Below are positions 7,401-63,078 of a stretch of DNA of 64,000 bases, piece after piece; the stretch's first letter is position 1, and every line of letters starts with the position of its first letter. The stretch spans positions 1 through 64,000 of IMG/VR virus record IMGVR_UViG_3300025626_000007. One strand, written 5' to 3'. Below the pieces are notes generated by a model. It did no database searches. It was not told the DNA's origin and saw only the letters and a program-made list of their open reading frames with translations. This stretch comes from a virus. Both the position numbers and the translations under genes were made by a program.

Positions 7401-7414
7401 ACTAGGAGAATAAA

Positions 7415-7768
7415 ATGTCAGAAGAAAAAAAGAAGGTACAACTTACCGCAGACAGTGATGGGTTTTTAGCGGGAGCTGATGCGGACGGTGATGGTCACAT
7501 TACCGAACAAGAACTACAGATGCACTTAGAGTTCAAACGAAAGGAACTTGAAGACGCAGATGCAATGCGTGATGCACAACGTAACATGGCATGGTTTGCA
7601 CTTGGCGGAATGTTACTTTATCCCTTCGCTGTAGTACTGGCATCCTTGATAGGATTAGACCAAGCAGCAAATACGTTAGGTTCTATGGCACCTACTTACT
7701 TTGTATCTGTTGCCGCGATTGTTGCAGCGTTCTATGCGAAGGAAGCAGTCGGTAACAAGAATAAGTAA
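7415..7768 (+). CDS. EF-hand membrane protein, 117 aa
   Basis: Residues 22-33 read DADGDGHITEQE, a textbook 12-residue calcium loop with ligands D22, D24, D26, H28, T30 and E33 and the invariant G27. A charged helix (about 34-55) leads to two hydrophobic helices, about 57-78 (NMAWFALGGMLLYPFAVVLA) and 90-110. The likely topology is a cytoplasmic calcium-binding head on a two-helix hairpin anchor. Similar proteins occur in marine T4-like phages. A calcium-responsive holin or membrane sensor is possible but unproven. AGGAG precedes the ATG. Confidence 0.75.
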   Translation: MSEEKKKVQLTADSDGFLAGADADGDGHITEQELQMHLEFKRKELEDADAMRDAQRNMAWFALGGMLLYPFAVVLASLIGLDQAANTLGSMAPTYFVSVAAIVAAFYAKEAVGNKNK

Positions 7769-9604: not shown

Positions 9605-9605
9605 T

Positions 9606-10202
9606 TTGAATGACTCTAAACCACCGGTGTGGATGATCGTGATGAGTGGGAATCCCATCTCCGATTACTATAGAAAACTTGCATTACCTTCTTGGTTGAA
9701 AGCTGGGTTCGATGTTAATTTTTTCGAAGGTGTTACACCCGAGACTTACAAAGATCATTTTGATTTGCTCTTTGGGAACAAACATAGTAAAAGCACTCCG
9801 GATGGTGTAATGTTCACTGTCTCTGAAAAGTGTGTGTGGTACGGTCATTACTATCTTTGGAAAAAATGTATTGATACTGACACTCCTATGATAGTGTGTG
9901 AACATGATATTGAATTGGTTATGAATATTCAACCTTCAATATACACTAAACCTATGGCGTGTTTGGCTCATGATCCTCCAGACATACACAAGGAGAGACG
10001 TACATCTCTTGCGGGTGGTGCATATTATATAACACCAGATGTTGCAAAGGTGTTAATAAGAATAAGCGAGGATCGTATTAGAGTCAACTCTGATGGTTGG
10101 ATCTGGGAAGTGTGTAAGGCGCATGGATACTTTCATTATGACAAGTGTTCACATATAAAAGATTATTCTGTCGGATTTACGACCAAACATAACAAGAGTT
10201 AG
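9606..10202 (+). CDS. glycosyltransferase family 25-like protein
   Basis: The 198-residue product has VWMIVMSGNPISDYYRKLA at the N-terminus, then EKCVWYGHYYLWKKCI and PMIVCEHDIEL, the order seen in GT25 (LPS or collagen-type) glycosyltransferases: cut-off helix, then a strand ending in ExD. GGAYYITPDVAKVLI follows as in that family. I use TTG 9606, one base after the previous stop, with AGGA nine bases upstream; ATG 9564 would lie inside the radical SAM gene. The EHD replaces the usual DxD-like motif. Acceptor unknown. Confidence 0.65.
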   Translation: MNDSKPPVWMIVMSGNPISDYYRKLALPSWLKAGFDVNFFEGVTPETYKDHFDLLFGNKHSKSTPDGVMFTVSEKCVWYGHYYLWKKCIDTDTPMIVCEHDIELVMNIQPSIYTKPMACLAHDPPDIHKERRTSLAGGAYYITPDVAKVLIRISEDRIRVNSDGWIWEVCKAHGYFHYDKCSHIKDYSVGFTTKHNKS

Positions 10203-10205
10203 ACA

Positions 10206-10394
10206 ATGTATAACATAACATTCAAACACTATCGTACTGGCGCAGAACTCACCTTGACTGGGTACCCAATGGACGACTATAATAAACGCAAAGATTCTGA
10301 GATGTTCATATTCTATGATACTCTCAATGAACGAATCGAAGCCATTATAAGGTCATCCATTGTGTCCATGTTGGCATATGAGGATGAGTTGTGA
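10206..10394 (+). CDS. hypothetical protein, 62 aa
   Basis: A small soluble protein between two glycosyltransferase genes, starting MYNITFKHYRTGAELTLTGY and ending in a helix (ERIEAIIRSSIVSMLAYEDEL). It begins three bases after the previous stop and its end overlaps the GTG of the next gene (GTGA). The tight packing supports its being expressed. Family not recognised; a small partner of the transferases is only a guess. Confidence 0.6.
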   Translation: MYNITFKHYRTGAELTLTGYPMDDYNKRKDSEMFIFYDTLNERIEAIIRSSIVSMLAYEDEL

Positions 10395-11185
10395 AAAGAC
10401 TGATATATCAGGTTTGTCTGGGAAAACAGATAGATTCTAAGTTGTATGCGAAATGTATCGAAAGTGTTGCAGAGTACGCAACCCGTCATGGTGTCGAACA
10501 TCGTATTCAACGTACACCTATCCTCAAGGTCAAACCAGACCCTTTCACAAGTAACCGTAGTACCGAGAGTTGGCAGAAACATGGTGGGTTTCTACCTATC
10601 TATGAGAAAGAGAATGCATTTGACTTACTTGATGAGTATGACCAGATTGCAATCATTGATGCAGACATCTACATTCGACCAGACGCACCAAACATCTTCG
10701 AAGACTTTGGTACAGAGGATGCATTCGGTGCAGTGATTGAACGTGAGATGCCTATCACCGACAAGTACAAACAGAAGATTCAAAACTACTCTCGTATGCA
10801 GTACGAACAATTGCAAAACTACAACGTAGCAAATTTCTTTCCCAACTCACTTGGATATGAGTTTGCCAACATGGGTATGATTGTGTTAAACTGTAAGAAC
10901 TTCAAACCATACTTGAATGGTCAGACCGCAAAACAGTTTATTACTCGTATGGAGTTCAAGGACTTTGTTGATGGATTGGGGCCATGGAAGTGGTCAACTG
11001 ACCAGACTTTACTCAACTACTTTATTAAGAAGTATGATGTACCCACCAAGAAGATGAGTCATGTGTGGAATGGTTTATATGGTGCAAACACTAAGATTGA
11101 AGATTGTCACTTTGTACACTTCTTTCTAAAAGACTTGTTACCAAATCAAGGTGAGAACGTAGAAGAGTTGATGAAGAAGATATGA
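10391..11185 (+). CDS. glycosyltransferase, GT8-like (DxD)
   Basis: A 264-residue GT-A protein. YDQIAIIDADIYIRP puts the DAD metal motif at residues 90-92. FANMGMIVLNCKNF (about 156-169) and the long acceptor-binding part ending HFVHFFLKDLLP are as in GT8-type enzymes, and the overall plan parallels the 3705 gene. GTG start with GAGGA five bases upstream, overlapping the previous stop; its own stop overlaps the methyltransferase ATG. The donor and acceptor are not evident. Confidence 0.72.
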   Translation: MKRLIYQVCLGKQIDSKLYAKCIESVAEYATRHGVEHRIQRTPILKVKPDPFTSNRSTESWQKHGGFLPIYEKENAFDLLDEYDQIAIIDADIYIRPDAPNIFEDFGTEDAFGAVIEREMPITDKYKQKIQNYSRMQYEQLQNYNVANFFPNSLGYEFANMGMIVLNCKNFKPYLNGQTAKQFITRMEFKDFVDGLGPWKWSTDQTLLNYFIKKYDVPTKKMSHVWNGLYGANTKIEDCHFVHFFLKDLLPNQGENVEELMKKI

Positions 11186-16267: not shown

Positions 16268-17140
16268 ATGCAATCTTTTAACACATTCTTAAAAGAAGAG
16301 ACCTTCCTTTCAGAAGAATCGGAAGCGTTACTTGAAAAACTCATTACCTTTGGTGGTAAAGCATACCCTAAGTTTGGTAACATTGTTATCATGGCCGGTG
16401 GTGCGGGTTCTGGTAAAGGATTCATTCTGAGTAATCTGGTAGGTATCGAAGGAAAGACTTTCGATGTGGATGAGTTGAAGAAACTTGCCGCTAAGACACC
16501 TGCGATCCAGAAACGAGTCATGGACGAACTCGGTGTGGATATTTTTAAATTGTCACAGAACCTGAAAGATCCTAAGAATGTAGAGAAACTACACGAAATC
16601 ATTGGTATCTATCTAAAGACTGATAAGAACAAAGAGAAGTTATTCTATCGTTCAGTATTGACCGCGCCTGCTGATCGTAAACCAAACATCATCTTCGACA
16701 TGACCTTCAAGGAATTGTCTAAGTTGGAGAAGGTTGCGAATGATGCGTCTAAGTTGGGTTACGACAAGAAGAACATCCATATCGTATGGGTTGTGAATGA
16801 TATCGAAGTTGCGAAGGCACAGAATGCGAAACGTGCACGTGTTGTACCTACCGAGATTCTTGTCAATACTCACCGTGGTGCAGCTAACACTATGGGTGAT
16901 ATCATCAACATGGGTAACAAACTCAAGAAGTATATGGATGGGGATATCGTATTCGCATTCAACAAAGTTGGTGTAGATGCGAATCTGGCGAAGTCTGGTA
17001 AGGGTGGTTCATACGTCAAAGACGCAAACTACTTCTATGTCAAGAGAGCAGGTAAACCACCTACTCCCGTTGACAAATTAGATAAAGAGATTCGTTCTAA
17101 GATCGCAGGTTATGTACCTAAGAACGTAGACTGGAACTAA
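16268..17140 (+). CDS. P-loop kinase (zeta-toxin-like) with possible capsid-targeting N-terminus
   Basis: IVIMAGGAGSGKGFILSNL (about residues 39-57) is a Walker A motif, followed by FDVDELKK, a kinase-type acidic strand, and IIFDMTFKE and IHIVWVV as later core strands. NAKRARVVPTEILVNTHRGA resembles the lid and substrate-binding part of zeta toxins and related kinases. The first residues MQSFNTFLKEETFLSEE closely mimic T4 capsid-targeting sequences (MKTYQEFIAEA) and contain two LxE sites of the type cut by the T4 prohead protease gp21. A late promoter lies just upstream. It may be an internal head protein injected with DNA. It converges with the 17137 gene. Confidence 0.7.
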   Translation: MQSFNTFLKEETFLSEESEALLEKLITFGGKAYPKFGNIVIMAGGAGSGKGFILSNLVGIEGKTFDVDELKKLAAKTPAIQKRVMDELGVDIFKLSQNLKDPKNVEKLHEIIGIYLKTDKNKEKLFYRSVLTAPADRKPNIIFDMTFKELSKLEKVANDASKLGYDKKNIHIVWVVNDIEVAKAQNAKRARVVPTEILVNTHRGAANTMGDIINMGNKLKKYMDGDIVFAFNKVGVDANLAKSGKGGSYVKDANYFYVKRAGKPPTPVDKLDKEIRSKIAGYVPKNVDWN

Positions 17141-49626: not shown

Positions 49627-52600
49627 ATGTCAAGACCATTTACGAAACTAAGTGACTCGTTCAAGACAATGCGAGACAACCAGAACACTGTCTCTTATAA
49701 TATTGGCGATCCGGTGGATCTTCTCACTCACGGTGATAGTGATGTGGTCATGGCCATCAACGAAATCGAAAGGGTGTTTGACGCATCTTCCGGTGAAATC
49801 ATTTATCCTACGGGAAATGCCCTCCAAGGGGAAACTCAAACTCGTTTACTAATCAGTACTAATCAAGCAAGTGGTACTGATGTACAATTCAATGTCGGTG
49901 CAAACTTCAACGTTGATGCGGTAGGTGATATTAATTTAGATGCCGGTGGATCTAACATCAACTTCCTTGATGATTCGGTCAGTCGTATTGCATTTACTTT
50001 GGGTGCGACTAACACTGTTGGTGTGACTGGTGTACTTGACCTTGATGTCTCTTCTAATCTCGACATCGATGTGTCTGGTAATACGACTCTTACCTCCACC
50101 GGCACAACTACTATCGAAACAACTACATTCACTGTAGACGCATCCGGAGATGTAATCCTTGATGCAGATGGCGGAAATGTAACTTTCAAAGATGGTGGTG
50201 TCACAGAGTACGACTTTGCTACTGACGGTACAGTTTCTCGTACCGGAAACTTGACATTTGACATCTCGGGTGATATAATCTTCGATGCAGATGGGGCAAA
50301 CATTACATACAAAGATGGTGGTGTTACTCGTATTGCATATACGATGGGTACCACTAACACCGAAACCATAACTGGTAATTATACTCTTGATGTGTCTGGT
50401 AATATTATACTAGATGCGGACGGTGGAAACATCGACCTAAAAGAGAATGGAATATCTAGATTTGAATATGGTTTGGGTTCATCTAACACCGTAGACGTAA
50501 CAGGTAATCTAGCCCAAACCGTCTCAGGTAACTTCTCAGACAGTGTTGGCGGTGCTTATGATATCACCTCAACTGGTGGAATGTCTCATACCACTCTTGG
50601 TACTCTCACCACAACCTCATTGGGACAAACCCATAATGTGACAGGTGACTTCACTGTTGATGCATCCGGAGATATTACTCTCGATGCTGATGGTGGACAA
50701 CTATATCTAACAGATGGTGGTGCCAATAAGGTAACATATAATTTCGGTACGAATCAAGAGATTGATATTGTCGGTTCGTTGATCTTTGATGTTGCCAATG
50801 ATATTGTATTGGATGCCGGTGGTGGTGACATTGACCTCAAACAAGCTGGAACGACTCGTTTTGCTTACGGACTAGGTTCAGCAAATACTTTAGATGTTAC
50901 AGGTACACTCACTACTACTACTTCGGGTAACAACACCCTTACAGTGGCAGGAGATCACTCTGACAGTGCTTCTGGTACTCGTGACATCTCTTCGACTGCC
51001 GGTATCAATATCGACACTCGTGGCCCGATGACGAATACTGCGGGTGGTGCATTCAATCTTGTTACCGAATCAAACATGGGTCTTACCGCTGGTGGTAACC
51101 TAACCGCAGATATTGAGGGTGATATCAACCTTGATGCGAACGGTGGTAATGTTACACTTAAAGATAATGGTGCAGTAAGATTTGATTTCCAGATGGGTGC
51201 GAATCAAGAGATTGACGTACCCACCGGCAACTTAACTGTCGATGTGGCAGGTGATATAGTACTGGATGCAGGTGGAAACGATATAGACCTGAAAGGTGCG
51301 GGAACAACTCGTTTCGCATATGGTCTAGGTGCATCGAACACATTGGACGTAACTGGTAATCTTGCACAAACAGTATCAGGTAACCAGTCTGACAGTGTTG
51401 GAGGTACTTACTCAGTTACTTCTATTGGTGCAATGTCTCATACTACTTTGGGTACATTGACCACAACATCATTGGGACAAACCCATACAGCAGACGGTAA
51501 TTACTTGATCGATGTTTCTGGTGATATTACACTTGACGCAGATGGAAACGACATTTACTTCAAAGACGGTGCATCCACACGCATCCGTCATCAATTAGGT
51601 GCAACAAACAACATCACTGTTACCGGAGATTATAATATATCGGTAAGTGATTCTGCATCTTTGTCTACTACAAATGGTTATAGTCTAACTATTGGTGGTT
51701 CGGTAAAAGAGAATATTACTGTAAACAAAACTACTACTGTTGGTGGCACATTAGTAAATGCCATCATCGGTGCATTAAATGATAGTGCGGACTCGTATGG
51801 TCTGACTACTACAGGTAATATTATACAGACTGCCGGTGGGTCTACATCTACTACCGCAGGAACAACTGCAACCATCAATGCAGGAACAGATATTCTTCTT
51901 GATGCATCTGGAGATATTACTCTCGATGCTGATGGTGCGGACATCTACTTCAAGGATGGCGGTGTAACTAAGTTCACCTATAACCTTGGTGCAAACCAAG
52001 AAGTTGATGTTGTAGGAAATCTGACGTATGATGTCTCCGGTGATATTACACTTGATGCAGACGGTGGTGACATATATCTCAAGGATGCAGGAACTCAGTT
52101 TGGTCGTTTACAGAACAGCAGTAATCAACTAGATATCTGGTCTGGATCTACTCTTGCAATCGAAATGGATTCAAGTAAGGTAGAGATTCATGGTCGTGCA
52201 TTCTACACTGACGAAGATCTAGACACTACCGCACAAGATGTTGCGGGTGGTATCAATGAACTTCATTTGCAACTAGATAGTGCAGTTGGCGAGATAGAGT
52301 CCGAGAAACTTATAACCCGTGCGCATCTGGACATTATACAGTCCGGTGGTACAACTGCGAACATGTCAGGAACAGGTATCTCTACACTGGATACAACAAG
52401 TAAGTTTATTGTTCCGGCTATCAATGAGATCCACACACAGTTGGATAGTGCAGTTGGTGAGATTGAAGTTGTAAAGGGTAGAGTCACAAGTAATGACACG
52501 GACATTCTTAACTTGAGTAATCGAGTAGGACAGTTGAATCAACTTGATAGTTCTGCGCCAGGCAACTTCTTTGAAGGTATAAATAATGATAGTATTGTTA

Positions 52601-52668
52601 AAGCGTTAAATGAACTGGCATCTAGAACTGTCTTAATCTATGACGAAAACGGTACTCTTCTAAACTAA
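49627..52668 (+). CDS. repeat-rich tail fiber-like protein, 1013 aa
   Basis: MSRPFTKLSDSFKTMRDNQN is a common start of marine phage fiber proteins. About residues 95-850 hold eleven copies of a unit of roughly 35 residues: DITLDADGGDIYLKDGG, then a TRFxYxLG segment and NTLDVTG, separated by variable spacers (SQTV-SGNxSDSVGG, THTTLGTLTTTSLGQTH). The pattern is that of a parallel beta-helix or trimeric beta-prism fiber. The C-terminal part has helical segments (GINELHLQLDSAVGEIE, twice). It ends RTVLIYDENGTLLN. Likely a long tail fiber or whisker-like component. Confidence 0.75.
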   Translation: MSRPFTKLSDSFKTMRDNQNTVSYNIGDPVDLLTHGDSDVVMAINEIERVFDASSGEIIYPTGNALQGETQTRLLISTNQASGTDVQFNVGANFNVDAVGDINLDAGGSNINFLDDSVSRIAFTLGATNTVGVTGVLDLDVSSNLDIDVSGNTTLTSTGTTTIETTTFTVDASGDVILDADGGNVTFKDGGVTEYDFATDGTVSRTGNLTFDISGDIIFDADGANITYKDGGVTRIAYTMGTTNTETITGNYTLDVSGNIILDADGGNIDLKENGISRFEYGLGSSNTVDVTGNLAQTVSGNFSDSVGGAYDITSTGGMSHTTLGTLTTTSLGQTHNVTGDFTVDASGDITLDADGGQLYLTDGGANKVTYNFGTNQEIDIVGSLIFDVANDIVLDAGGGDIDLKQAGTTRFAYGLGSANTLDVTGTLTTTTSGNNTLTVAGDHSDSASGTRDISSTAGINIDTRGPMTNTAGGAFNLVTESNMGLTAGGNLTADIEGDINLDANGGNVTLKDNGAVRFDFQMGANQEIDVPTGNLTVDVAGDIVLDAGGNDIDLKGAGTTRFAYGLGASNTLDVTGNLAQTVSGNQSDSVGGTYSVTSIGAMSHTTLGTLTTTSLGQTHTADGNYLIDVSGDITLDADGNDIYFKDGASTRIRHQLGATNNITVTGDYNISVSDSASLSTTNGYSLTIGGSVKENITVNKTTTVGGTLVNAIIGALNDSADSYGLTTTGNIIQTAGGSTSTTAGTTATINAGTDILLDASGDITLDADGADIYFKDGGVTKFTYNLGANQEVDVVGNLTYDVSGDITLDADGGDIYLKDAGTQFGRLQNSSNQLDIWSGSTLAIEMDSSKVEIHGRAFYTDEDLDTTAQDVAGGINELHLQLDSAVGEIESEKLITRAHLDIIQSGGTTANMSGTGISTLDTTSKFIVPAINEIHTQLDSAVGEIEVVKGRVTSNDTDILNLSNRVGQLNQLDSSAPGNFFEGINNDSIVKALNELASRTVLIYDENGTLLN

Positions 52669-52682
52669 TAGTAGGAAAGAGA

Positions 52683-55600
52683 ATGTCAGATAATAAGACA
52701 TTACCGTTAAAATTAAAAGACATTAATGGTAATCTCCAACAGATAAATGCAACCGAGAAAAATTATGTTGCCTACCTCGCAGGACTACAGAACGCAATTG
52801 CGGACAGTAGCGATGTAGGGCTTCTTACGCTCAGTGCAAGTGGAAATAGGTCTCTTGGGTCTCTGACGGATACCTATTATCCAGAACCCGTTGGAACTCA
52901 TCCATATAATGCCCAATCGGTTATTACCACCACAACAAATTTATATCAGATCAATGGTACCGCACTAGAGAATGATAGTGATTGGAGAAAACCAGTCGGA
53001 CATTATGAAAGTAATGTATATGAAATGTCGGATAATGATCTGAACACTTTCATCGATGATATCAATGGTCGTATCGCACTATCTGACTATCCAGGCTCTC
53101 TCAAGTTGTCTTCGACCAGACCTAGTGCAGACTATGACATTCTAGTCCCTAGTGTTTTGCATGATCAACGTGCTGACTCTTCGGGGAACCCATATACTGT
53201 AAATGACTATAGTATATGGCGTAGAACTGCAATGACTGCTCCAACTTCGGTCACTCTCGCGGGACTGAAGAGAAGTAGTGGCGACTCTGGTACTTATGAA
53301 GGATTACAAGCATTAACAAATCGTCAAGTTCAAGTGACTATTGGTCAACGTGCAAAGACTAGACGTGCAATTGATGGTGCGGTCGGATCATATGAACTTA
53401 GAACTTCTTCGCAGGGTATACCTGTCGGTGGTACTTGGAAGAATGTAGGTAGTGCTGCAAACACCATTCGTGTTGTCAGTGAACAGAACTATACTCGCAC
53501 ACGAGCATCTTTATACACGAGAACTAGACCTTCGGCTTACGCTGATGATTACACTCGCACAGGGACAGTTTCATATGCAGGCAACTATACTGGAAATTAC
53601 ACCAGAGACTTTATAGGAGACTATACCAGAGAATTTACGGGCAATTATACCGGTGATTATACTGGCGACTATGGTAGAACTTTTGTCGGAGACTATTCTA
53701 GAGACTTTGCAGGCAACTATATTGGAAATTACACAGGTAACTTCAATCGCAACTTTTCACGTACCTTTTTTAGAGATTTCATAGCGACACGTATCAGTTC
53801 ATTTGCCGGTGAATTTATAGGCAATTATACCGGAGCCTTCACACGGACTCGGGAATCGACTTATAGTAGATTCCGTTCATCTAGTTATTCCAGAGACTTT
53901 GCAGGCGAATATACTAGATTGTTTCTTGGCAACTATGCTGGTAACTATGTAGGTGAATACACACGCATCTCGACACGTGATAGACAATCTACCTATACCC
54001 GAACAAGAATAGTAAGTAGAAATTCCAGTTACACTGGCGATTATACCAGATTTTTCTCTGGACAATATTCACGTGACTTCACTAGAATTAGGGCATCAAC
54101 TTACACTGGCAATTACTCCAGACTTTTCTCTGGACAATATTCACGTGACTTCACTAGAATTAGGGAATCAACTTACACTGGCAATTATACTGCCACATAT
54201 ATTGGTAACTATGCACGTGACTTCACTAGAGATAGAGGTTCTTCATACTCCAGAAGTTTCATTGGTAACTATGCACGTGACTTCACTAGAGATAGAAGTT
54301 CTTCATACTCCAGAAGCTTCATAGGTAACTTTTCACGTGACTTCACAAGAGATAGAATTTCTACATATAATAGAAACTTCAGCAGAACTCGTTTCTCAAC
54401 ATATATTGGCAACTTCACTCGAATATTAAACTCTACACGCACTTCGACATCCACATATGGTGCTGTTAGAGTAAGTAATTATACTCGAATCCGTTCATCA
54501 CTCCTAAAAGCTTCTGTATACTATACTGGTGATTACACAAGAGACTTTGTGGGTGCTGGTTATTTAGGAGTGCCGGGGGCAACATATACTCTTAACCGTA
54601 CATCTACTTTTGCGGGATTTACGTATTATACCAGATTAGACAAATCGGGTGGTACACTTGCCTTTGCTGGCCCTGCTACGTATACCGGTGACTTTATAAC
54701 TACTAGGACGGTTCCTTCATACATTGGTGATTACACAAGAGTCAGTTCATATTTGCAGGGATTCACTCGCGAATTTACTAGGACTCGGGTATCTACTTAT
54801 TCTAGAGAGTTTGCTGGGGAATACTCAAGAAACTTCGAAAGAGCCAGAGTATCAAGTTATAATAGATTGTTTGTTGGCGAATACTCAAGAAACTATGAAA
54901 GAACTAGAAATTCGAATTACAACAGATCGTTTGCTGGGGAATACTCAAGAAACTTTACCAGAAATAGAGATTCTAGTTACATAAGAGTTAGATCTTCTAC
55001 TTTTGCGGGAGAATATGCGAGGGACTTTACCAGAAATAGAGATTCTAGTTACATAAGAGTTAGGTCTTCTACTTTCTCGGGACAATATGCAAGAGACTTT
55101 ACCCGAGAAAGAAACAGTAATTATATACGGACTAGGGTTTCACTCTATACTGGTAACTATACCGGTGAATATACGAGAGACTTTGCCGGTAACTATACCG
55201 GTGATTATGCAGGTCTATTTACCAGAGTTAGTTTAAATGATCGTTATTCGACATATATCAGAACTCGGGTATCGTCTTACCTTAAAGCGTTTGCTGGGAA
55301 TTATACAAGAGACTTTGCCGGTAACTATACCGGAGATTTCCTACGAATATCAACCAGAACAAGGTTCGATTCTTTCAGTAGAACTCGGGCTTCGTCATAC
55401 ATAACTTTGAGAGCATCTACATACGTTGGAGTTTATGCTGCGGATTATGTCGGTGATTATACTGGTGAGTTTACCAGAGATAGAAACTCCAACTATACCC
55501 GAGAAAGAAACAGTAATTATATAAGAAATCGTGGGTCTACATATACCAGAACTAGAGGATCTTCATATACTAGAGAGTCTACTCGAACAAGTACTGTAGA

Positions 55601-55745
55601 TTTTGGCGGCAACTATATTGGTAATTATAGTAGAAACTTTGCCGGTAATTATTCCAGAGACTTTGTAGGAGACTACGTGGGTCAGACTATTAGGGATACT
55701 ACATTCTCAGTTGAAACATATACTCTGTATGTAAGAACCGCATAA
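52683..55745 (+). CDS. tetrapeptide-repeat fiber protein A, 1020 aa
   Basis: Residues 1-269 are a globular head (LPLKLKDINGNLQQINATEK, later ALSDYPGSLKLSSTRPSADY) shared with the 55794 protein. Residues 270-1000 are tetrapeptide repeats of the form [Y/F]-x-[G/R]-[N/D/T/E], as in YTGNYTRDFIGDYTREF, mixed with YTRTRxSx octets. The last residues (ETYTLYVRTA) are also shared with the paralogue. Such a regular aromatic ladder suggests a long beta-solenoid or trimeric beta-fiber. A distal tail fiber is likely; the family is known to me only as an uncharacterised structural type in marine phages. Confidence 0.7.
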   Translation: MSDNKTLPLKLKDINGNLQQINATEKNYVAYLAGLQNAIADSSDVGLLTLSASGNRSLGSLTDTYYPEPVGTHPYNAQSVITTTTNLYQINGTALENDSDWRKPVGHYESNVYEMSDNDLNTFIDDINGRIALSDYPGSLKLSSTRPSADYDILVPSVLHDQRADSSGNPYTVNDYSIWRRTAMTAPTSVTLAGLKRSSGDSGTYEGLQALTNRQVQVTIGQRAKTRRAIDGAVGSYELRTSSQGIPVGGTWKNVGSAANTIRVVSEQNYTRTRASLYTRTRPSAYADDYTRTGTVSYAGNYTGNYTRDFIGDYTREFTGNYTGDYTGDYGRTFVGDYSRDFAGNYIGNYTGNFNRNFSRTFFRDFIATRISSFAGEFIGNYTGAFTRTRESTYSRFRSSSYSRDFAGEYTRLFLGNYAGNYVGEYTRISTRDRQSTYTRTRIVSRNSSYTGDYTRFFSGQYSRDFTRIRASTYTGNYSRLFSGQYSRDFTRIRESTYTGNYTATYIGNYARDFTRDRGSSYSRSFIGNYARDFTRDRSSSYSRSFIGNFSRDFTRDRISTYNRNFSRTRFSTYIGNFTRILNSTRTSTSTYGAVRVSNYTRIRSSLLKASVYYTGDYTRDFVGAGYLGVPGATYTLNRTSTFAGFTYYTRLDKSGGTLAFAGPATYTGDFITTRTVPSYIGDYTRVSSYLQGFTREFTRTRVSTYSREFAGEYSRNFERARVSSYNRLFVGEYSRNYERTRNSNYNRSFAGEYSRNFTRNRDSSYIRVRSSTFAGEYARDFTRNRDSSYIRVRSSTFSGQYARDFTRERNSNYIRTRVSLYTGNYTGEYTRDFAGNYTGDYAGLFTRVSLNDRYSTYIRTRVSSYLKAFAGNYTRDFAGNYTGDFLRISTRTRFDSFSRTRASSYITLRASTYVGVYAADYVGDYTGEFTRDRNSNYTRERNSNYIRNRGSTYTRTRGSSYTRESTRTSTVDFGGNYIGNYSRNFAGNYSRDFVGDYVGQTIRDTTFSVETYTLYVRTA
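53490..55683 (+). repeat. 12-bp-based tetrapeptide repeat array (fiber A)
   Basis: About 180 tetrads. Synonymous codons vary freely in most units, so they are old, but blocks are freshly duplicated: two 72-bp units at 54052 and 54124, three 60-bp units at 54201, 54261 and 54321, and two 72-bp units at 54961 and 55033. All are multiples of 12 bp, preserving the register. Confidence 0.85.
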
Positions 55746-55747
55746 AT

Positions 55748-55771
55748 AAACTTATAAATAGAAATAAGTTT
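55748..55771 (+). other. stem-loop enclosing a late promoter
   Basis: AAACTTA / TAAGTTT, a 7-bp stem with a 10-base loop; TATAAATA at 55753-55760 straddles the left arm and loop, immediately after the fiber A stop. CATAAATA at 55741 lies just before. Confidence 0.55.
55753..55760 (+). promoter_or_regulatory. T4-type late promoter
   Basis: TATAAATA followed by G, 34 bp before the GTG start of fiber B. Confidence 0.7.
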
Positions 55772-55793
55772 AATAAATTAGAGAAGTGAATTT

Positions 55794-58700
55794 GTGGCCG
55801 CATCTGATATCCCACTAAAGTTAGAAGGTACGAATGGTGATCTGAAGGAGATGACTCCTACGGAAGAGAACTATCTCGCCTATCGTGCAGGTATTCAACT
55901 AAAGAATTCTGCGGGTTCTTCTGCTGGAGACTTGCATCTCTCTAGTGGTACTATCATTGGTTCTTTCGTTGATACTTTCTACAATGAACCTGATGGTACC
56001 CATCCCGCATCATCTATCACTTCCGGCACAACTACGACTAATCTAAGACAACTATCTAATGATGCGAACTATAATGGTGGTTTTTATAACAGACCGGTTG
56101 GTTGGAACACTTCGGGTGATGTAGGTATTCATGAATTCACTGATTCAGATATGGATACCTTATGTACTCGTCTGAATGCACGTATTGCAATATCTGATTA
56201 TCCAGGCACCTTTTACCTTGGTTCTTCTGCACCTAGTGCGGACTATGGTACATTTATCCCTACTGTATACACAGACACATTAGGTAACGGAACTTCTACA
56301 GTATACAATATCTATCAACGTGATGCAATGACTGCACCGACAGCCACGTCTCCGATTGGTATGATTGGGTCAGATTCTGCCGCCAGTTTTGGTGGATTAC
56401 AAGAACAATCTGTTAACCAGATTACTTACACTTATGGACAACACTGTAAAACTCTTAGGGGAAAGGTGGGTAATATTGGTTCTTACCAATTAAGATCTGC
56501 GACTCAGGGAACTCCGGTAAGTGCAGGAACTTGGGCCGCAAAAGGTACTGCGACCAATACTAAAAGAACAACTTCAGAACTTGCATATGTTCGTACTCGT
56601 GCATCTTCTTATACTCGTGATCGTTCATCCGCATACGCAAGAACAAGAACTTCACTATACACTCGTAATAGCACAAATACGTTCACCCGAGATTTTAGTG
56701 GAAATTATATTGGCAACTACACTCGAAACTTTTCGGGACAATATATCAGAGATTATGTGGGTGAGTATGTCGGTAATTACGTAGGTGAGTACACAAGAAA
56801 CCGTGCTTCAACTTTCACTAGAAACAGTACTGATACTTTCTCTAGAATCTTTGTGGGCGAGTATGTTCGCAATAGATCTTCTGCATATACCAGAGATAGT
56901 ATCAATACTTTCACAGGTAACTTTGTAGGCAATTATTCTAGAACAAGAGTATCTGCATACAGTAGAAATAGTATTCGCAACAGGTTGAGTACATATACTC
57001 GTAACAGAACATCTACATACACAACCGTGTTTTCGGGAAACTATATTGGTAATTTTGTTGGGGATTATTCCCGTACTAGAGTATCCGCATACGCAGGAAC
57101 ATACTCACGTAATCGCATATCAACATATTCGCGAACACGTACCAGTGCATATATTCGTGATCGAGTAACATCCTTTATTGGCGACTTTGTTGGCAACTAT
57201 GCACGTAACAGAGTATCATCATACTCTAGAATAAGTACCCGTACTCGTATCTCCGCATATACCCGAACTAGAAGCTCCACATACACCAGAGATCAACTAA
57301 CGACTTTTACCGGTAACTATGTTGGTAACTACGGCCGTACTCGTATCTCTGCATACGCAAGAATTCGTGTTTCTAATTATGCAGGTAATTATACAGGCAA
57401 TTATACACGCACGAGAATATCCGCATATACACGTGATCGAGTAACAGACTTTACCGGTGACTTTATTGGTAACTACACTCGTGGCCGAGTTTCCAATTAT
57501 GTTCGGGATAGACTTGTAACTTTTACCGGTGACTATGTTGGTAACTATAATAGAACATTTGTTGGTAATTATAATAGAACATTTATAGGTAACTATTCAC
57601 GTGGGTTTGCGGGTGACTATACCGGCAACTATTCTCGTATATCAACACGTATTAGTGCAAGAACAAGAGGTTCCAACTACACTCGTATTTCTTCACGGAA
57701 TTCATTGGTAACATATACTCGCGACAGATTCCAAGGATATGTCGGTAACTTTGGTGGTAATTACGCAAGAACATTTGTCGGTAATTATGTCGGCGACTAT
57801 GGTAGATCATTTGCTGGTAACTATACCGGAAATTATAACCGTGCGTTTGCTGGCGACTATACTGGTAACTACCAAAGAACATTTGCCGGAAACTACATTG
57901 GTAACTATACCGGAAATTATACTCGTGCGTTTGCTGGCAATTATACTGGCAATTATAATAGAGGGTTCGTAGGAGAATATGGCCGTACTCGTCCTTCTGC
58001 ATATACCAGAAACAGCACACGTATTTCAGTTCGCACACTCAACTATATCCGAACGAGTCTTCGAACTTCAGTTCGCACACTCAACTATATCCGAACGAGT
58101 CTTCGAACTAGTAGTCGAATTTTAACATATACTCGTGATTCGACCTATACTGGTAACTATACCGGAAATTATACTCGTATAAGAATTGCAACTGGTGACT
58201 ATATCAGAACCAGAACTGCCACCGGAACATATATTCGTACCAGAACTGCCACCGGAACATATATTCGTACCAGAATTGCGACTGGTAACTACCAACGTAT
58301 ATCAATAAGAGACAGAATTGCTACATTATACTACCAACGTACATCATATTATGCAGGTGATTTCACAGGTAACTACACTCGTACATTGTATTACATTGGT
58401 AATTTCACAGGTAACTACACTCGTACATTGTATTATGTTGGTAATTTTGTAGGTAACTATAATAGAATAGTTAACTATGTAGGTGACTATACTCGAATAG
58501 TTAAACAGACAGTGTATTATACCGGTGATTATTTGGGGGTTGCGAATTACCTGAGATATTCTTCGAGAACCAGAACTGCGACCGGATATTATATCAGAAC
58601 ATCTATACGTACTAGAATTGGAACCGGTACGTACATTAGAACAAGTACCCGTACTTCGAATCGAATCGATACCTATATCCGAACCGGATATTATATAGGT

Positions 58701-61154
58701 AACTTTACGGGCGACTATACTCGAACTCTATATTACACCGGTAACTATACTCGTACATTGTATTATACAGGCGACTATACTCGAACTCTATATTACATCG
58801 GTAACTATACTCGCACATTGTACTATACCGGAGACTATACTCGCATATCTATTCGTAATAGAATAACTCCATTATACTTTACTCGCATTGGATATTACGC
58901 AGGTGACTTTACGGGTGACTATACTCGCATTGGATCTTATGCAGGTGACTACATAGGCGACTACACTCGCATTGGATATTATACCGGAGACTACATAGGA
59001 AACTATTCGCGAAACTTTATAGGTGACTATTCGCGAACTCGCATCTCTGCGTATACTAGAATATCGACCCGTAGTAGAAATTCTTCATATATTCGCACTT
59101 CAATAAACCCATCGACCCGCGGCCGTCTCTCCACATATACTCGTATATCGGCACGTAGTAGATCATCCGCATACATTAGAATATCTACACGCAGTAGACC
59201 TAGTAATTACACAAGAACTCGTATTCAAAACAGAAGTTCTACGTATACTCGTACATCAACTCGTGATAGTATCGTTCAGTTCGTAGGTACAACTGGTACA
59301 CGTTACTCAGATCAATCTAACTTGTTGTGGCAGAACTTTCCTGCTTGGACAGTTGGTACTGGTTCTGCAACTAACTATAATCAGAACGGGGACGGTAACT
59401 CACGTATTTCCGACACTTCTCCGAAGGGTACTGATATCGTTTGGGATGTGTCAAATCAAGATGCGACATCTAATGCAGATGGTGGTTGGAATACTTCAGC
59501 TTTCTCAGTTGATAAAACCAAACTATACAGATTCTCTACATGGGTAAGACGTAAAGTTATTGGTAATGGTTCATTCTATCTTGGTGTTGGCGGAACAGTA
59601 TTGAACAGAAGTAATGGTGCATCTAACAGTAATCCGTACTTCCAAGCGAGAGGTTGGTGGTATGGTACCGAATCTCAAAACGAATGGTTTTTGGTAGTCG
59701 GTCACGTTTTCCCCGAAGGTTCTGGTACCGGTGCGGCTCATGCTGACTCTGGTATCTATAATATGGCGGGTGAGAAAGTTGTATCCGCTCAGAATGATTT
59801 TGTCTGGAGTGGTAACACTACTGCATACCACAGAACATACTTGTATTACTCAACAGATACCGCGACCAATCAACAGTTCTGGGAACCTCGTGTAGATGAT
59901 ACTACAAACGCAGCAAGTCCTAGTATCACTGATATGCTCACATTGTCATCGAACTATACTCGCACGTTCGCAGGTAATTTCACTGGTGATTATACTCGTG
60001 GATTTGCAGGCAACTACACCGGCAACTATACTGGTGAATATACTCGTATATCGACCCGTAGTAGAATATCCACATATATACGTACTCGTGCATCGTCTTA
60101 TATTCGTAATCGTGTATCTGCCTACGCAAGAACTCGTATAACCGACTCTATTGGAAACTTTGTTGGTGACTATGGTAGAACCTTTACCGGAAACTATACC
60201 AGAAATAGTATCAGTACATTCGCAGGTAATTTTGTCGGTAACTATAATAGAGGATTCGTTGGTAACTATACCCGTATATCTCTCCGCACTTCGACTCGTG
60301 CATTTGAAGGTAACTATGCTCGTGCATTCGCAGGTAACTATTCTAGGACTCGGGTAACCGACTCTATTGGAAACTTTATTGGTGACTATGCTCGTGCATT
60401 CGCAGGTAATTACAATCGTGGATTTGGGGGTAATTATACCGGCAATTTCAATAGAACTTTTGTTGGGGAATACACAAGAAATAGTATCAGTACATTCGCG
60501 GGTAATTTTGTCGGTAACTACAATAGAGGATTTGTTGGTAACTATGCAAGAGGTTTTGCGGGTAACTATGTCGGCAACTACAACAGAAACTTTGTGGGAG
60601 AATATGCAAGAACTCGTGCGACTGATTTTGTAGGAGAATACACTGGTAACTTCTCAAGAATATTTGGTGGTAATTATGGCCGGACTTTCGTAGGAGATTT
60701 TGTTGGTAACTACAACAGAAACTTTGTAGGAGAATATACTCGGGATTCTACTTCAGACTTTGCGGGTAACTTTGTGGGTAACTACAATAGAACCTTTGTT
60801 GGTGAATATGCAAGAACCCGATCTTCTAATTATGTCGGAGACTTTACTGGTAACTATAGTAGAACTTTTGTTGGGGACTACTCAAGAACTTCGGTCAGAA
60901 CCTCTGCACGAACTAGAGTATCCACTTTTAGTAGAAGTCGAAATTCAGCATATACCATAGATTCTACTAGAACTAGAACCTCGTCATACTTAGGTGACTT
61001 TACTGGTAATTATAGTAGAGGTTTTGCGGGTAACTATAGTAGAACATTCGCAGGAAATTATGCCAGAAACTTTACTGGTAATTATACCGGAACAACTGTT
61101 GATTCCGGAACAGGAGTGATTGAGACATATACCTTGTACGTAAGGGTTGCTTAA
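55794..61154 (+). CDS. tetrapeptide-repeat fiber protein B with globular insert, 1786 aa
   Basis: GTG start after AGAGAAG. Residues 1-264 repeat the head of fiber A (IPLKLEGTNGDLKEMTPTEE, then IAISDYPGTFYLGSSAPSAD). Residues 265-1162 and 1388-1766 are tetrapeptide repeats (NYTGNYTRAFAGNYTGNY type). Residues about 1163-1387 are a globular domain (WNTSAFSVDKTKLYRFSTWV, GNGSFYLGVGGTVLNRSN, NEWFLVVGHVFPEGSGTG) that looks like a carbohydrate-binding jelly roll. The end ETYTLYVRVA matches fiber A. It is probably a long adhesin-type tail fiber paralogous to A. Confidence 0.72.
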   Translation: MAASDIPLKLEGTNGDLKEMTPTEENYLAYRAGIQLKNSAGSSAGDLHLSSGTIIGSFVDTFYNEPDGTHPASSITSGTTTTNLRQLSNDANYNGGFYNRPVGWNTSGDVGIHEFTDSDMDTLCTRLNARIAISDYPGTFYLGSSAPSADYGTFIPTVYTDTLGNGTSTVYNIYQRDAMTAPTATSPIGMIGSDSAASFGGLQEQSVNQITYTYGQHCKTLRGKVGNIGSYQLRSATQGTPVSAGTWAAKGTATNTKRTTSELAYVRTRASSYTRDRSSAYARTRTSLYTRNSTNTFTRDFSGNYIGNYTRNFSGQYIRDYVGEYVGNYVGEYTRNRASTFTRNSTDTFSRIFVGEYVRNRSSAYTRDSINTFTGNFVGNYSRTRVSAYSRNSIRNRLSTYTRNRTSTYTTVFSGNYIGNFVGDYSRTRVSAYAGTYSRNRISTYSRTRTSAYIRDRVTSFIGDFVGNYARNRVSSYSRISTRTRISAYTRTRSSTYTRDQLTTFTGNYVGNYGRTRISAYARIRVSNYAGNYTGNYTRTRISAYTRDRVTDFTGDFIGNYTRGRVSNYVRDRLVTFTGDYVGNYNRTFVGNYNRTFIGNYSRGFAGDYTGNYSRISTRISARTRGSNYTRISSRNSLVTYTRDRFQGYVGNFGGNYARTFVGNYVGDYGRSFAGNYTGNYNRAFAGDYTGNYQRTFAGNYIGNYTGNYTRAFAGNYTGNYNRGFVGEYGRTRPSAYTRNSTRISVRTLNYIRTSLRTSVRTLNYIRTSLRTSSRILTYTRDSTYTGNYTGNYTRIRIATGDYIRTRTATGTYIRTRTATGTYIRTRIATGNYQRISIRDRIATLYYQRTSYYAGDFTGNYTRTLYYIGNFTGNYTRTLYYVGNFVGNYNRIVNYVGDYTRIVKQTVYYTGDYLGVANYLRYSSRTRTATGYYIRTSIRTRIGTGTYIRTSTRTSNRIDTYIRTGYYIGNFTGDYTRTLYYTGNYTRTLYYTGDYTRTLYYIGNYTRTLYYTGDYTRISIRNRITPLYFTRIGYYAGDFTGDYTRIGSYAGDYIGDYTRIGYYTGDYIGNYSRNFIGDYSRTRISAYTRISTRSRNSSYIRTSINPSTRGRLSTYTRISARSRSSAYIRISTRSRPSNYTRTRIQNRSSTYTRTSTRDSIVQFVGTTGTRYSDQSNLLWQNFPAWTVGTGSATNYNQNGDGNSRISDTSPKGTDIVWDVSNQDATSNADGGWNTSAFSVDKTKLYRFSTWVRRKVIGNGSFYLGVGGTVLNRSNGASNSNPYFQARGWWYGTESQNEWFLVVGHVFPEGSGTGAAHADSGIYNMAGEKVVSAQNDFVWSGNTTAYHRTYLYYSTDTATNQQFWEPRVDDTTNAASPSITDMLTLSSNYTRTFAGNFTGDYTRGFAGNYTGNYTGEYTRISTRSRISTYIRTRASSYIRNRVSAYARTRITDSIGNFVGDYGRTFTGNYTRNSISTFAGNFVGNYNRGFVGNYTRISLRTSTRAFEGNYARAFAGNYSRTRVTDSIGNFIGDYARAFAGNYNRGFGGNYTGNFNRTFVGEYTRNSISTFAGNFVGNYNRGFVGNYARGFAGNYVGNYNRNFVGEYARTRATDFVGEYTGNFSRIFGGNYGRTFVGDFVGNYNRNFVGEYTRDSTSDFAGNFVGNYNRTFVGEYARTRSSNYVGDFTGNYSRTFVGDYSRTSVRTSARTRVSTFSRSRNSAYTIDSTRTRTSSYLGDFTGNYSRGFAGNYSRTFAGNYARNFTGNYTGTTVDSGTGVIETYTLYVRVA
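56586..59280 (+). repeat. tetrapeptide repeat array, fiber B block 1
   Basis: About 225 tetrads. Besides 12-bp units it holds arrays with a 10-residue (30-bp) period (TYIRTRTATG near 58211; YTRTLYYTGD near 58710-58850) and a 14-residue (42-bp) duplication at 58025 and 58067, where LN or LY adds two residues between tetrads. Confidence 0.85.
59283..59954 (+). other. region encoding a globular, lectin-like insert in fiber B
   Basis: A non-repetitive 225-residue domain between two repeat blocks. Trp-rich, with FSVDKTKLYRFSTWVRRK and SFYLGVGGTV strands and an acidic YEPR/WEPRVDD-like end. It resembles the carbohydrate-binding modules inserted in some phage fibers; the specific family cannot be named by eye. 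Confidence 0.6.
59955..61092 (+). repeat. tetrapeptide repeat array, fiber B block 2
   Basis: About 95 tetrads, mainly the NYxGNY/NYNRxF type, ending NYTGT before the unique C-terminus. Runs such as FAGNFVGNYNRGFVGNY recur at about 60216 and 60495. Confidence 0.85.
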
Positions 61155-61203: not shown

Positions 61204-61659
61204 ATGAGTTATAAAAGATGGATGGATAATGCGTTCTGGGAAACAGAGGAGAAAGAAAAACTCAACTGTATCCTAGAAATGAAAGATGATCTGGATCGCG
61301 AGACCCGACAAGTAATGATGTTGAGTCGCAAGAATAAGGATGGTAGTGAAAATGAATTGTTCAATGAAGTCATTGATGCTTTAGGTGAAGAGTCTGTAGA
61401 TAGAAATACCGAAGACCGTAAGATTCGTAAAGCTGCCGAAAAAGAAGAAGATAAACAACGTGATGTGGAACACGCACGTGCACGTAAGTTAGAAGAACTC
61501 TTTAACTATAAATTAGAAATCTTCGAAACCGAAGAAATTAAAAACTCTAAGAACAGAAAACTCAAGTCTAAACTTAGACGAGCAAAGTCCAAGGTAGAAG
61601 CGAATCTTTTTGCTATGTTGCTTTTAAAAGAAGAACTTGGAGTTGAGGAAGATGTCTGA
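61204..61659 (+). CDS. charged coiled-coil protein, 151 aa
   Basis: TTGGAGAACTGAA gives the ribosome site. The protein is mostly charged helix: MSYKRWMDNAFWETEEKEKL, then RKIRKAAEKEEDKQRDVEHA (about residues 75-94) and LKSKLRRAKSKVEANLFAML. I recall similar hypothetical proteins next to fiber genes in marine T4-like phages. A fiber chaperone or assembly factor would suit the place, but that is inference. It overlaps the next gene by 8 bp. Confidence 0.65.
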   Translation: MSYKRWMDNAFWETEEKEKLNCILEMKDDLDRETRQVMMLSRKNKDGSENELFNEVIDALGEESVDRNTEDRKIRKAAEKEEDKQRDVEHARARKLEELFNYKLEIFETEEIKNSKNRKLKSKLRRAKSKVEANLFAMLLLKEELGVEEDV

Positions 61660-62386
61660 GAAGTCTAAAGGTTATGTGTTGGTTGCATCGAATAAGATTA
61701 ACTTCTATCGGTATGCGATCAATCTAGCAGAATCTATTCTGGATTATTACGAAGATGCGAAGATTACACTATTCTGCGAAGAGTGGATGTTCGAAGAAAT
61801 ACACCGAGATTTATTTGATAATGTTGAATGGTGTTCATCCCACTACCGTGCAAAACTAGATGGTATGGCTCGTTCTCCATATGACCTAACCATGTACCTC
61901 GATGTTGATATGGAAGTGGAACACGAAGATATCCGCATTTGTTTTGATGAATTGGAAAGACGTGACGAAGACATCTTATTCTCTGAATTGACCGATGATC
62001 GTGAATATGTCTATGCCGAAAGAAGTTTTGATACTCCCGATGGCCCATCCAAGTTCACTCTATGTGGTGGTGTTGCACTTTACGATATGACCAAACCTAT
62101 TGTACGTGAGTTCATGGATGATTGGTGGGATCTCACACGCAGACAAATGGATCGTGACTGGTGGCCTGAAGGATATATAGAAAGTCTTCGGTCATGGGAT
62201 CAGTTCAGTCTTTGGTGGTTGACCGAGAAAGAACCTAAATACAAAGACCTGAAGTATGGTATCTTGGAAGATGATTTGCGTTGGAACTATTATAACGCAT
62301 TCAACTGGGCAAGGACTAGACCAGAAGGTGAAGTTATTGTCAGACATTATTCCTGTGGATTAGATAAGGACGGATATATTATATGA
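61652..62386 (+). CDS. glycosyltransferase-like protein (GT-A, DxD)
   Basis: I use ATG 61652, nine bases after GGAG; TTG 61637 is in frame but inferior. The 244-residue product has VLVASNKINFYRYAINLAES, then SPYDLTMYLDVDMEVEHEDI with the DVD motif at about residues 89-91, TLCGGVALYDMTKPIVREFM and SWDQFSLWWLTEKEPKY. This is the GT-A plan of the 3705 and 10391 genes. It directly follows the fiber genes, far from the main cluster, so a fiber-specific sugar transfer is worth considering. The stop overlaps the next ATG. Confidence 0.7.
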   Translation: MSEKSKGYVLVASNKINFYRYAINLAESILDYYEDAKITLFCEEWMFEEIHRDLFDNVEWCSSHYRAKLDGMARSPYDLTMYLDVDMEVEHEDIRICFDELERRDEDILFSELTDDREYVYAERSFDTPDGPSKFTLCGGVALYDMTKPIVREFMDDWWDLTRRQMDRDWWPEGYIESLRSWDQFSLWWLTEKEPKYKDLKYGILEDDLRWNYYNAFNWARTRPEGEVIVRHYSCGLDKDGYII

Positions 62387-63078
62387 GTTATATGCAAGAC
62401 ATTCCGGTGATGAACCAAGACTTATTGGTGAAATTAAATGCCTATCGAGATTTCTTGACCAGAGATATCCCTGACTTCGAGGAAACATTTCATAAGAGTT
62501 GTTCTCACGAATCACGGAATAGACATTTCTGGGCGGGTAAAGGTCATCTGGAAGAAATATTAGATCAAGGAACCCGACACGAAGGATTTCCCGATCAGAT
62601 GTATGGTTATGAAATGAGTGTTGGTCGCAAGGGACATGAATTTTTCAATAACGGGGTTCATCCCTCGGTAAGAAAAGATAGAACCGCAGAACTCGCGCAC
62701 ATGAATCAAGGACTTATGAATTGGTTGGGTGTGAAAAATAATGCACTAACCGCATGGTATCCGCCCGGTGGTTTTATCTCTTGGCACAATAATGCAAATG
62801 CAGCAGCGTATAATTTGATCTTCACGTGGTCGGAAACTGGAGAAGGTCAATTCGAATATGTAGATCCTATATCAAAAGAAGTTGTGGTGATGGAAGATAA
62901 GCCAGGGTGGCAGTGCAAGGCAGCATACTTTGGTCATTACGGTGAACCCGAAAGATTGTTCTATCATGCCGCGAAGACTGACTGTTGGAGATGTACAGTA
63001 TCTTTCACTTTCGATACTTCCCAACTATCCGCTGAACTTCGCGAAGATTTACTCGAAGAAATTAGTTCAGACGAATAA
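62383..63078 (+). CDS. 2OG-Fe(II) oxygenase-like protein, 231 aa
   Basis: ALTAWYPPGGFISWHNNANA followed by AAYNLIFTWSETGEGQFEYV (about residues 121-160) and ERLFYHAAKTDCWRCTVSFT (about 189-208) fit a jelly-roll 2OG oxygenase. The first ligand His lies in SWHN, where N replaces the usual D. The second lies in FYHAA, and R in WRC is placed for 2OG binding. The H-x-N variant leaves activity uncertain. It forms a two-gene unit with the glycosyltransferase. Confidence 0.6.
   Translation: MSYMQDIPVMNQDLLVKLNAYRDFLTRDIPDFEETFHKSCSHESRNRHFWAGKGHLEEILDQGTRHEGFPDQMYGYEMSVGRKGHEFFNNGVHPSVRKDRTAELAHMNQGLMNWLGVKNNALTAWYPPGGFISWHNNANAAAYNLIFTWSETGEGQFEYVDPISKEVVVMEDKPGWQCKAAYFGHYGEPERLFYHAAKTDCWRCTVSFTFDTSQLSAELREDLLEEISSDE

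Follow-up and report, generated by a model that had tools for sequence, protein, structure and literature searches.

Two giant paralogous genes in a baseplate gene block

The window, meaning the whole stretch of 64,000 bases that was analysed (bases 1-64000 of a virus record that is 105,044 bases long), carries two very long neighboring reading frames on its plus strand. Gene A (52683-55745) starts with ATG and encodes 1020 amino acids, while gene B (55794-61154) starts with GTG and encodes 1786. The original prediction of two giant paralogous repeat proteins at 52683-61154 is borne out by the reading frames, by the motif counts given below and by the 43% identity of the two N-terminal base domains; in addition, both proteins end in the C-terminal motif ETYTLYVR[TV]A. 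The pair sits in a tail and baseplate gene block of a T4-like phage and, as predicted, probably encodes fibers. It is preceded by baseplate genes of the T4 type and by a gene for a DUF4815 protein, and downstream are three short genes followed by an LtfC-like gene. Directly before the fibers, positions 49627-52668 encode a repetitive protein of 1013 residues with matches to baseplate-hub PHROGs and DUF2345, and with a match to the gp5 trimerisation domain that falls below the cut-off; this protein is maybe another fiber or a connector. Farther away, the window contains a carbamoyltransferase gene (5404-6900; PF16861/PF02543), a gene for a radical SAM protein with a SPASM domain (8597-9604) and a match to the kinase-like Pfam family Zeta_toxin (16268-17140).

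A two-residue alternation underlies the four-residue repeat

Strict [YF]x[GR][NDTE] units occur 92 times in A and 181 times in B, compared with a mean of 9.5 and a maximum of 17 in 200 shuffles of A, and a mean of 17.9 and a maximum of 29 in shuffles of B. Aromatic residues are found at 2.7-3.5 times expectation at lags of 4, 8, 12, 16, 20 and 24, and below expectation at all remaining lags to 23. The excess at lag 4 is 3.26 in A and 3.06 in B, versus 0.26 and 0.55 at lag 5, and by these lag counts neither protein has a period-five (pentapeptide-type) repeat. When the residues are laid out by parity, an alternation of two residues emerges beneath the period of four: one face (face 1) is made mostly of R, Y, G, F and S, and the other (face 2) mostly of T, N, A, V, S and D, with I as well. 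No phase slip interrupts this alternation between residues 265 and 627 of A or between 228 and 1167 of B. Among 63 non-redundant relatives (53,952 residues), the longest in-phase run has a median of 371 residues versus 83 in shuffles. The period of four is a second layer, in which aromatics tend to occupy alternate face-1 places. Tandem units in the two proteins measure 4, 8, 10, 14, 20 and 24 residues.

The four-residue unit that had been proposed for both proteins thus exceeds chance, with the two-residue alternation as its deeper rule. The copy numbers of about 180 and 320 given with it correspond to the approximate number of four-residue slots in the repeat regions, strict matches reaching only 92 and 181, and the repeats do not span the whole chains, given that about the first 265 residues of each are separate and B contains a non-repeat domain of about 219 residues. 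The notion that a period of four is not easily matched to beta strands finds no support, since four residues are two cycles of in/out alternation, as seen here. That the repeats carry no known signature is supported: besides the absence of period five, Pfam returned no match at E<=1 for A and a single sub-threshold poxvirus row (E 0.34) for B, and PHROGs returned one family of unknown function for each (E 0.0053 for A, 0.00048 for B), none of them confident.

The two halves of each repeat region share an antiparallel register

When residue i is set against residue c−i, the pairs Tyr:Arg, Phe:Ser, Gly:Ser and Gly:Arg are favored while Arg:Arg, Tyr:Tyr and Arg:Ser are rare; one of the pair tables behind this is partly circular because its pairs were picked by the scoring matrix. 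In the inner half of B, pairing i with 1808−i (counted from 0, as are all registers unless stated) makes Y face R 51 times and yields no like-with-like pair among 105 face-1 pairs. For return-arm residues 909-1166, 101 of these 105 pairs are favored and none is forbidden, this being the stretch that defined the pairing code. The hairpin scoring matrix was trained on B residues ~641-1166 only. Applied to A, this matrix from B gives a score of 118, compared with 68 ± 7 and a maximum of 90 in 30 tetrad shuffles; the resulting hairpin covers the entire repeat region, and 243 of its 316 pairs fall in one register, i+j=1268. In B, 609 of 615 pairs fall in two registers, 1808 and, for the outer arms, 2029. 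The offset of 221 between them is close to the length of the domain inserted in B.

The registers can also be ranked without alignment. Register 1268 then comes first of 270 in A, with 77.7% of face-1 pairs favored and 59.8% for the next best, and the outer-arm register 2029 comes first of 230 in B (90.3%, next 64.6%), where 158 of 175 face-1 pairs in the outer return arm are favored and 1 is forbidden. When the four-residue units of the partner arm were permuted, 0 of 10,000 trials equaled the observed favored fraction in any of three stretches, namely A 266-580, B 267-640 and B 641-898, of which the third had served for training. Over the same three stretches, the mutual information between paired face-1 residues is 0.73, 1.18 and 1.19 bits, versus shuffled maxima of 0.18, 0.16 and 0.26 bits. 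In contrast, the mutual information of face 2 never rises above its shuffled maximum (0.399 versus 0.400 in the outer B arms), and the code of face 2 (Thr, Asn, Ala, Val, Asp), if there is one, is weak. Raw mutual information compared over registers, which is noisy without a length correction, left register 1268 of A outside the ten best, ranked 1808 second in B before the insert and did not list 1808 in B minus the insert.

Layout of the two proteins

The base domain of A comprises residues 1-265 (52683-53477) and consists of related helix-plus-hairpin modules. It is followed by the outgoing arm (residues 266-626; 53478-54560), which forms the 316 pairs with the return arm, and by an irregular tip region (residues 627-677; 54561-54713) that holds the sole phase switches past residue 265; the innermost scored pair is 626/637. 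Tandem arrays in the DNA of A are mirror-ordered, with a 72-nt array (54029-54187) and a 60-nt array (54201-54367) in the outgoing arm, an irregular centre, and then a 60-nt array (54809-54981) and a 72-nt array (54946-55103) in the return arm. A predicted C-terminal strand (residues 990-1020; 55650-55742) closes the protein.

In B, the base domain (residues 1-265; 55794-56588) leads into an outgoing arm placed by the pairing alignment at residues 267-901 (56592-58496) and a tip at about residues 902-908 (58497-58517), next to the innermost scored pair 901/909. The return arm is split. Its inner part (residues 909-1166; 58518-59291) lies in register 1808 and its outer part (residues 1386-1764; 59949-61085) in register 2029, each assigned by face-1 pairing, and between them is the non-repeat inserted domain of about 219 residues (approximately 1167-1385; 59292-59948). 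The final segment (61086-61151), judged by its sequence and by analogy with A, is a likely C-terminal anchor strand. The inserted domain is 31-37% identical to 15 Vibrio phage records (37% in Vibrio phage F86), a similarity that covers 10-11% of B; the counterparts are annotated as virion structural proteins, except for one hypothetical protein. The same Vibrio phage records gave no match to the repeats or the base domain (E 1e-5, low-complexity filter on), and Pfam and PDB searches gave no name for the inserted domain. It is worth noting that the insert-bearing protein of F86 adjoins long-tail-fiber genes and also has a Laminin-G-like lectin domain.

The hairpin signal across the family

Of 63 non-redundant family members, 56 beat all 25 of their shuffles, 53 of them with z>4. 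The seven that fail are Arg-poor (L105, L120, L127, L148, L150) or truncated (L112, L153). In gap-free windows of 60 residues, antiparallel pairing scored above parallel pairing in 53 of 55 proteins; out of 849 such windows, 455 lay within 40 of the modal register.

Insertions and deletions follow the same geometry. Among close relatives, 62 of 65 are even in length and 49 are multiples of four. For insertions of at least four residues with a defined partner position (11 lacking one were dropped), 67 of 161 had an insertion of the same length at the predicted partner, compared with a mean of 4.3 and a maximum of 12 in 1000 random placements; the remaining 94 had no equal partner insertion at the predicted place, and the events are partly non-independent. 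Sequence identity of the arms in 32 ortholog pairs, with gaps counted as differences, is 0.92 in the tenth nearest the base and drops to 0.57 in the tenth at the tip, which is what a host-binding tip would predict.

Two other tests were weak. In an arm-swap control with gapped scoring, a protein's own return arm came first just 11 times out of 42, at a median rank of 4, which means that arms of other proteins score well too. Compensatory double substitutions numbered 6 against 3.3 expected, too few to decide, and all 6 retain a favored pair, versus 1 of 9 in eight shifted registers. A register anchored on the base Trp and the Arg of the C-terminal motif coincided with the outermost scored register in 32 of 79 proteins and came within four of it in 53, in a redundant set from which two further proteins lacking an anchor are absent; part of this agreement is built in because the scored region stops near those anchors. 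The outermost scored register is one less than the anchor in 12 of the 79 and one more in 5, an offset that is possibly a one-residue bulge between base and repeats. Nine proteins were checked by hand at the anchor register. In L148, 1 aromatic:aromatic pair falls at this register and 13-14 fall at a distance of two residues from it, with the same trend in L105, L118 (first fiber) and L120. L104 is reversed, with 17 such pairs at the anchor register and 2 two residues away, indicating that its anchor is off by two, and L127, L150, L151 and L166 gave no clear trend.

One further locus, L169, was obtained after the rule had been fixed, although it is still kin of members already used. Its hairpin score is 102, versus 45 ± 6 and a maximum of 63 in 100 shuffles, and its commonest register (53 of 244 pairs) is the one predicted from the base Trp and the C-terminal Arg. 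In its gap-free scan, the predicted register lay outside the best six.

Predicted structure and fold searches

An AlphaFold2 monomer run on A with 37 sequences gave blocks in the base mostly at pLDDT 87-97, with one at 74, and block means at the C-terminal end of 62 (residues 991-1000), then 90 and 97 (1001-1020). The AlphaFold2/DSSP strand list places the last strand of the base at 252-278 and the C-terminal strand at 990-1018. Counted from 1, the end sums i+j of these strands are 1270 and 1268, and the pairing register in the same count is 1270. Read from strand lists rather than coordinates, this suggests that the C-terminal strand of A docks on base strand 252-278. A natural relative of only 409 residues behaves like A, with strands at 241-260 and 386-407. 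In the arms, pLDDT was under 35 almost throughout for A and under 50 for the short relative, and the prediction therefore supplies no structural model of them. Within the base of A, hhalign relates module 2 to module 3 at 97% (E 4e-11), 1 to 3 at 91% and 1 to 2 at 83%. Judged by position, the giant hairpin would stand in for the third module's short hairpin.

Searches against solved folds produced no confident homology, in agreement with the original prediction. Foldseek found nothing at E<=0.001 for the models of A and the short relative in the PDB, or for the short-relative model in BFVD; phmmer with B against PDB chains found none at E<=1, and the base-domain profile had just two weak, unrelated matches. 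In VIA-align with full-protein models, the best row was the MACPF-linked domain 2qp2 (Z 6.4, rmsd 3.7, 117 aligned), and MPEG-1 reached Z 4.2. Such middling rows are not taken here as homology to MPEG-1 or 2qp2.

Three linked genes and the distribution of the family

The three short genes downstream of B are all on the plus strand. Linked gene 1 (61204-61659, 151 aa) has no family match in PHROG, or in Pfam with the window sequence; an assembly factor is one possible guess. Linked gene 2 (61637-62386, 249 aa) is glycosyltransferase-like, with an invariant DxD motif (Asp89 and Asp91 in 20/20) and weak Pfam matches to PF00535 in 6/20 (best E 0.0018) and to PF01501 in 1/20 (E 0.015); a PDB profile search returned nothing relevant. 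Linked gene 3 (62383-63078, 231 aa) has a motif order like that of 2OG-Fe(II) oxygenases. These enzymes hold their metal with an HxD...H triad and have an Arg for 2OG. In linked gene 3, His135, His195 and Arg203 are invariant in 20/20, and the HxD position is Asn137 in all 20 aligned relatives, giving HxN, so the full motif set is not present, nor is there a supporting Pfam match. Judged by these residues, the protein could be inactive or an unusual Fe enzyme. Pfam, PHROG and PDB-sequence searches gave neither gene 2 nor gene 3 a confident name. Taking the first possible starts, genes 1 and 2 have 23 bases in common and genes 2 and 3 have 4, overlaps that suggest coupled translation.

In tblastn searches (E<=0.01) of 50,697 phage records with the A base domain and linked genes 2 and 3, the record of phage C48C1 was the only match for each. 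Relatives were collected from viral contigs through linked gene 2, and among the best 80 of 96 matches, 75 loci have a repeat ORF upstream of it; in the remaining five (L036, L038, L044, L071, L100) the contig ends within ~600 bases of the match. The repeat DNA pattern identified 64 stretches, 58 of which have the base domain or at least one linked gene, neither being found around the other six (L125, L136, L147, L155, L161, L165).

From 172 3'-complete repeat ORFs we obtained 115 distinct ones and then 78, after dropping 16 that precede another complete fiber ORF and 21 with less than 2.2 kb downstream. All three linked genes follow 70 of these 78 fiber-like ORFs. In four of the exceptions (L117, L124, L149, L018), the ORF is an A-type gene and the B gene after it extends past the end of the locus. 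Of the others, L162 overlaps with another repeat ORF, the ORF of L143 ends atypically and is followed by two of the three linked genes, and L164 has an end resembling the DUF4815 gene rather than a fiber. In the last, L136, the repeats stand behind a different N-terminal domain, indicating that the repeat is modular; this ORF (6236-10408, minus strand) shares its contig with fiber locus L080. A scan of genome contigs added one distinct related locus, the L169 described above, with two repeat fibers and the linked genes on a 142-kb contig of a metagenome bin labeled Sphingobacteriales. This binning is a possible hint of the host and may be mis-binning.

Discussion

The alternation, the register, the matched indels and the base-to-tip gradient together point to a giant beta-hairpin whose two termini sit at the base and whose tip is encoded mid-gene. 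We propose, at a probability of roughly 0.88, that A and B are tail-fiber (adhesin) proteins of a T4-like marine phage, each predicted from its sequence to form one such hairpin. In this model, approximately the first 265 residues would be the base that joins the particle. The chain would exit from one beta-hairpin of the base, extend outward for about 365 residues in A and 635 in B, turn at the variable mid-sequence tip and come back antiparallel, a course that would bring the C-terminal strand back to dock on the base. One face of the ribbon would zip the arms together, with Tyr, Phe or Gly opposite Arg or Ser, chiefly as Tyr:Arg, Phe:Ser, Gly:Ser and Gly:Arg. What the original prediction envisaged as an aromatic stacking ladder would rather be a ladder across strands, with Tyr/Phe/Gly facing Arg/Ser on the two antiparallel arms of one chain. 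The original prediction missed the mirror symmetry, the base domain, the mid-gene tip, the insert of B and the linked downstream genes.

Presumably, the arms are beta strands throughout. An extended strand spans ~0.33 nm per residue, and the fully extended fibers would reach up to ~120 nm for A and ~210 nm for B. Several hairpins may bundle, perhaps three to give six strands, by analogy with the needle of T4 gp37. The tip would bind the host, and the placement of both proteins on the virion as tail fibers is likewise probable. From their linkage, the glycosyltransferase-like and oxygenase-like enzymes might modify the fiber. Fiber length would often shift by equal gain or loss of residues in both arms; the arms would evolve by matched duplications, so that the length could change while the register holds.

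Other explanations of the repeats have to be weighed. A beta-solenoid or a constant-turn coil with four-residue faces, the new repeat fold suggested originally, would suit the strict period of four and the low-complexity Thr/Asn/Gly content, which some solenoids share. We regard it as very improbable: the longer period is inconstant, with tandem units of 4-24 residues, such a fold predicts neither a constant i+j over hundreds of residues nor paired indels, and parallel pairing lost to antiparallel in nearly every protein compared. Equally hard to credit is the reading in which the mirror pattern arose as a side effect of the way the genes evolved, by inverted duplication or cassette recombination, rather than from folding. 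Although local tandem duplication does enlarge the arms, A has no inverted DNA repeat of at least 20 bases, the arms are complementary rather than copied (Y lies opposite R, not Y), and among the matched-pair insertions listed the two sequences differ.

Two further alternatives leave the antiparallel pairing untouched. It seems unlikely that A and B are other filaments, such as head fibers or whiskers, or non-virion proteins, given that they sit between baseplate-wedge genes and an LtfC-like gene, in an order that C48C1 repeats, that the tip is variable, and that the domain inserted in B also occurs in proteins of Vibrio phages, in one case beside long-tail-fiber genes. A domain-swapped trimer, in which arm 1 pairs in the same antiparallel register with arm 2 of the neighboring chain, is a possibility to be taken seriously, if a doubtful one. 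The register statistics fit pairing within and between chains alike, and the chains of T4 gp37 intertwine (PMC9659904). However, the AlphaFold2 strand lists suggest docking within the same chain, although a monomer run is blind to swaps.

If the self-zipping hairpin is correct, long-range pairing in a low-complexity protein could be read from its sequence by a simple rule, as in RNA stems, through a pairing code akin to the complementarity of nucleic-acid strands, and changes in protein length could be traced as paired events. It would also suggest a principle for building very long, register-locked protein fibers, give the giant proteins of marine T4-like phages that still lack a name a structural class open to testing, and place host specificity mid-gene rather than at the C terminus. 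The conserved downstream trio makes fiber assembly and modification testable. We are inclined, somewhat more cautiously, to see here a new class of fiber, in which one polypeptide self-zips over hundreds of residues through a one-face code, with arms grown by matched duplication and a host-binding tip mid-gene; a dedicated glycosyltransferase and an unusual HxN oxygenase might go on to modify the fiber. A phage fiber needle of antiparallel strands with a head at its tip is already known. Within the reach of our searches, the pairing code, the size and the protein family have no earlier description: the accessible portions of the literature on repeat and hairpin tail fibers, cross-strand pairing, cyanophage oxygenases and C48C1 contain none that matches. 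The novelty suggested originally is partly supported and takes another form, a self-complementary giant hairpin in place of a coil of tetrapeptides.

The nearest annotated relative is a hypothetical protein of 3347 aa in phage C48C1 (OQ984149, Kyanoviridae). Its base domain is 39.6% identical over 98% of the query, it shares the repeats and the hairpin signal, and the downstream genes follow in the order of the A/B locus. C48C1 differs in having a single giant fiber gene instead of two, and its best-scoring hairpin stops short of the C terminus. Among known systems, the closest resemblance is to the needle of T4 gp37, with no sequence homology detected with B or the base-domain profile as query. 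The gp37 chain follows an out-and-back course, and A and B would do the same, with antiparallel arms evident in their constant i+j and in the paired indels of their relatives, arms that are presumably strands. The gp37 needle also contains HxH iron-binding sites. These are absent from the arms of A and B, which have no His; A contains 3 His and B contains 7, all in the base or inserted domains. In gp37, six antiparallel strands form a needle that carries the receptor-binding head at its tip (PMC9659904, PMC7291167), the receptor-binding elements being the last 215 residues of the protein (PMC9659904). In contrast to gp37, the arms of A and B are hundreds of residues long and pair Tyr/Phe/Gly with Arg/Ser, and their C terminus would dock on a dedicated N-terminal base.
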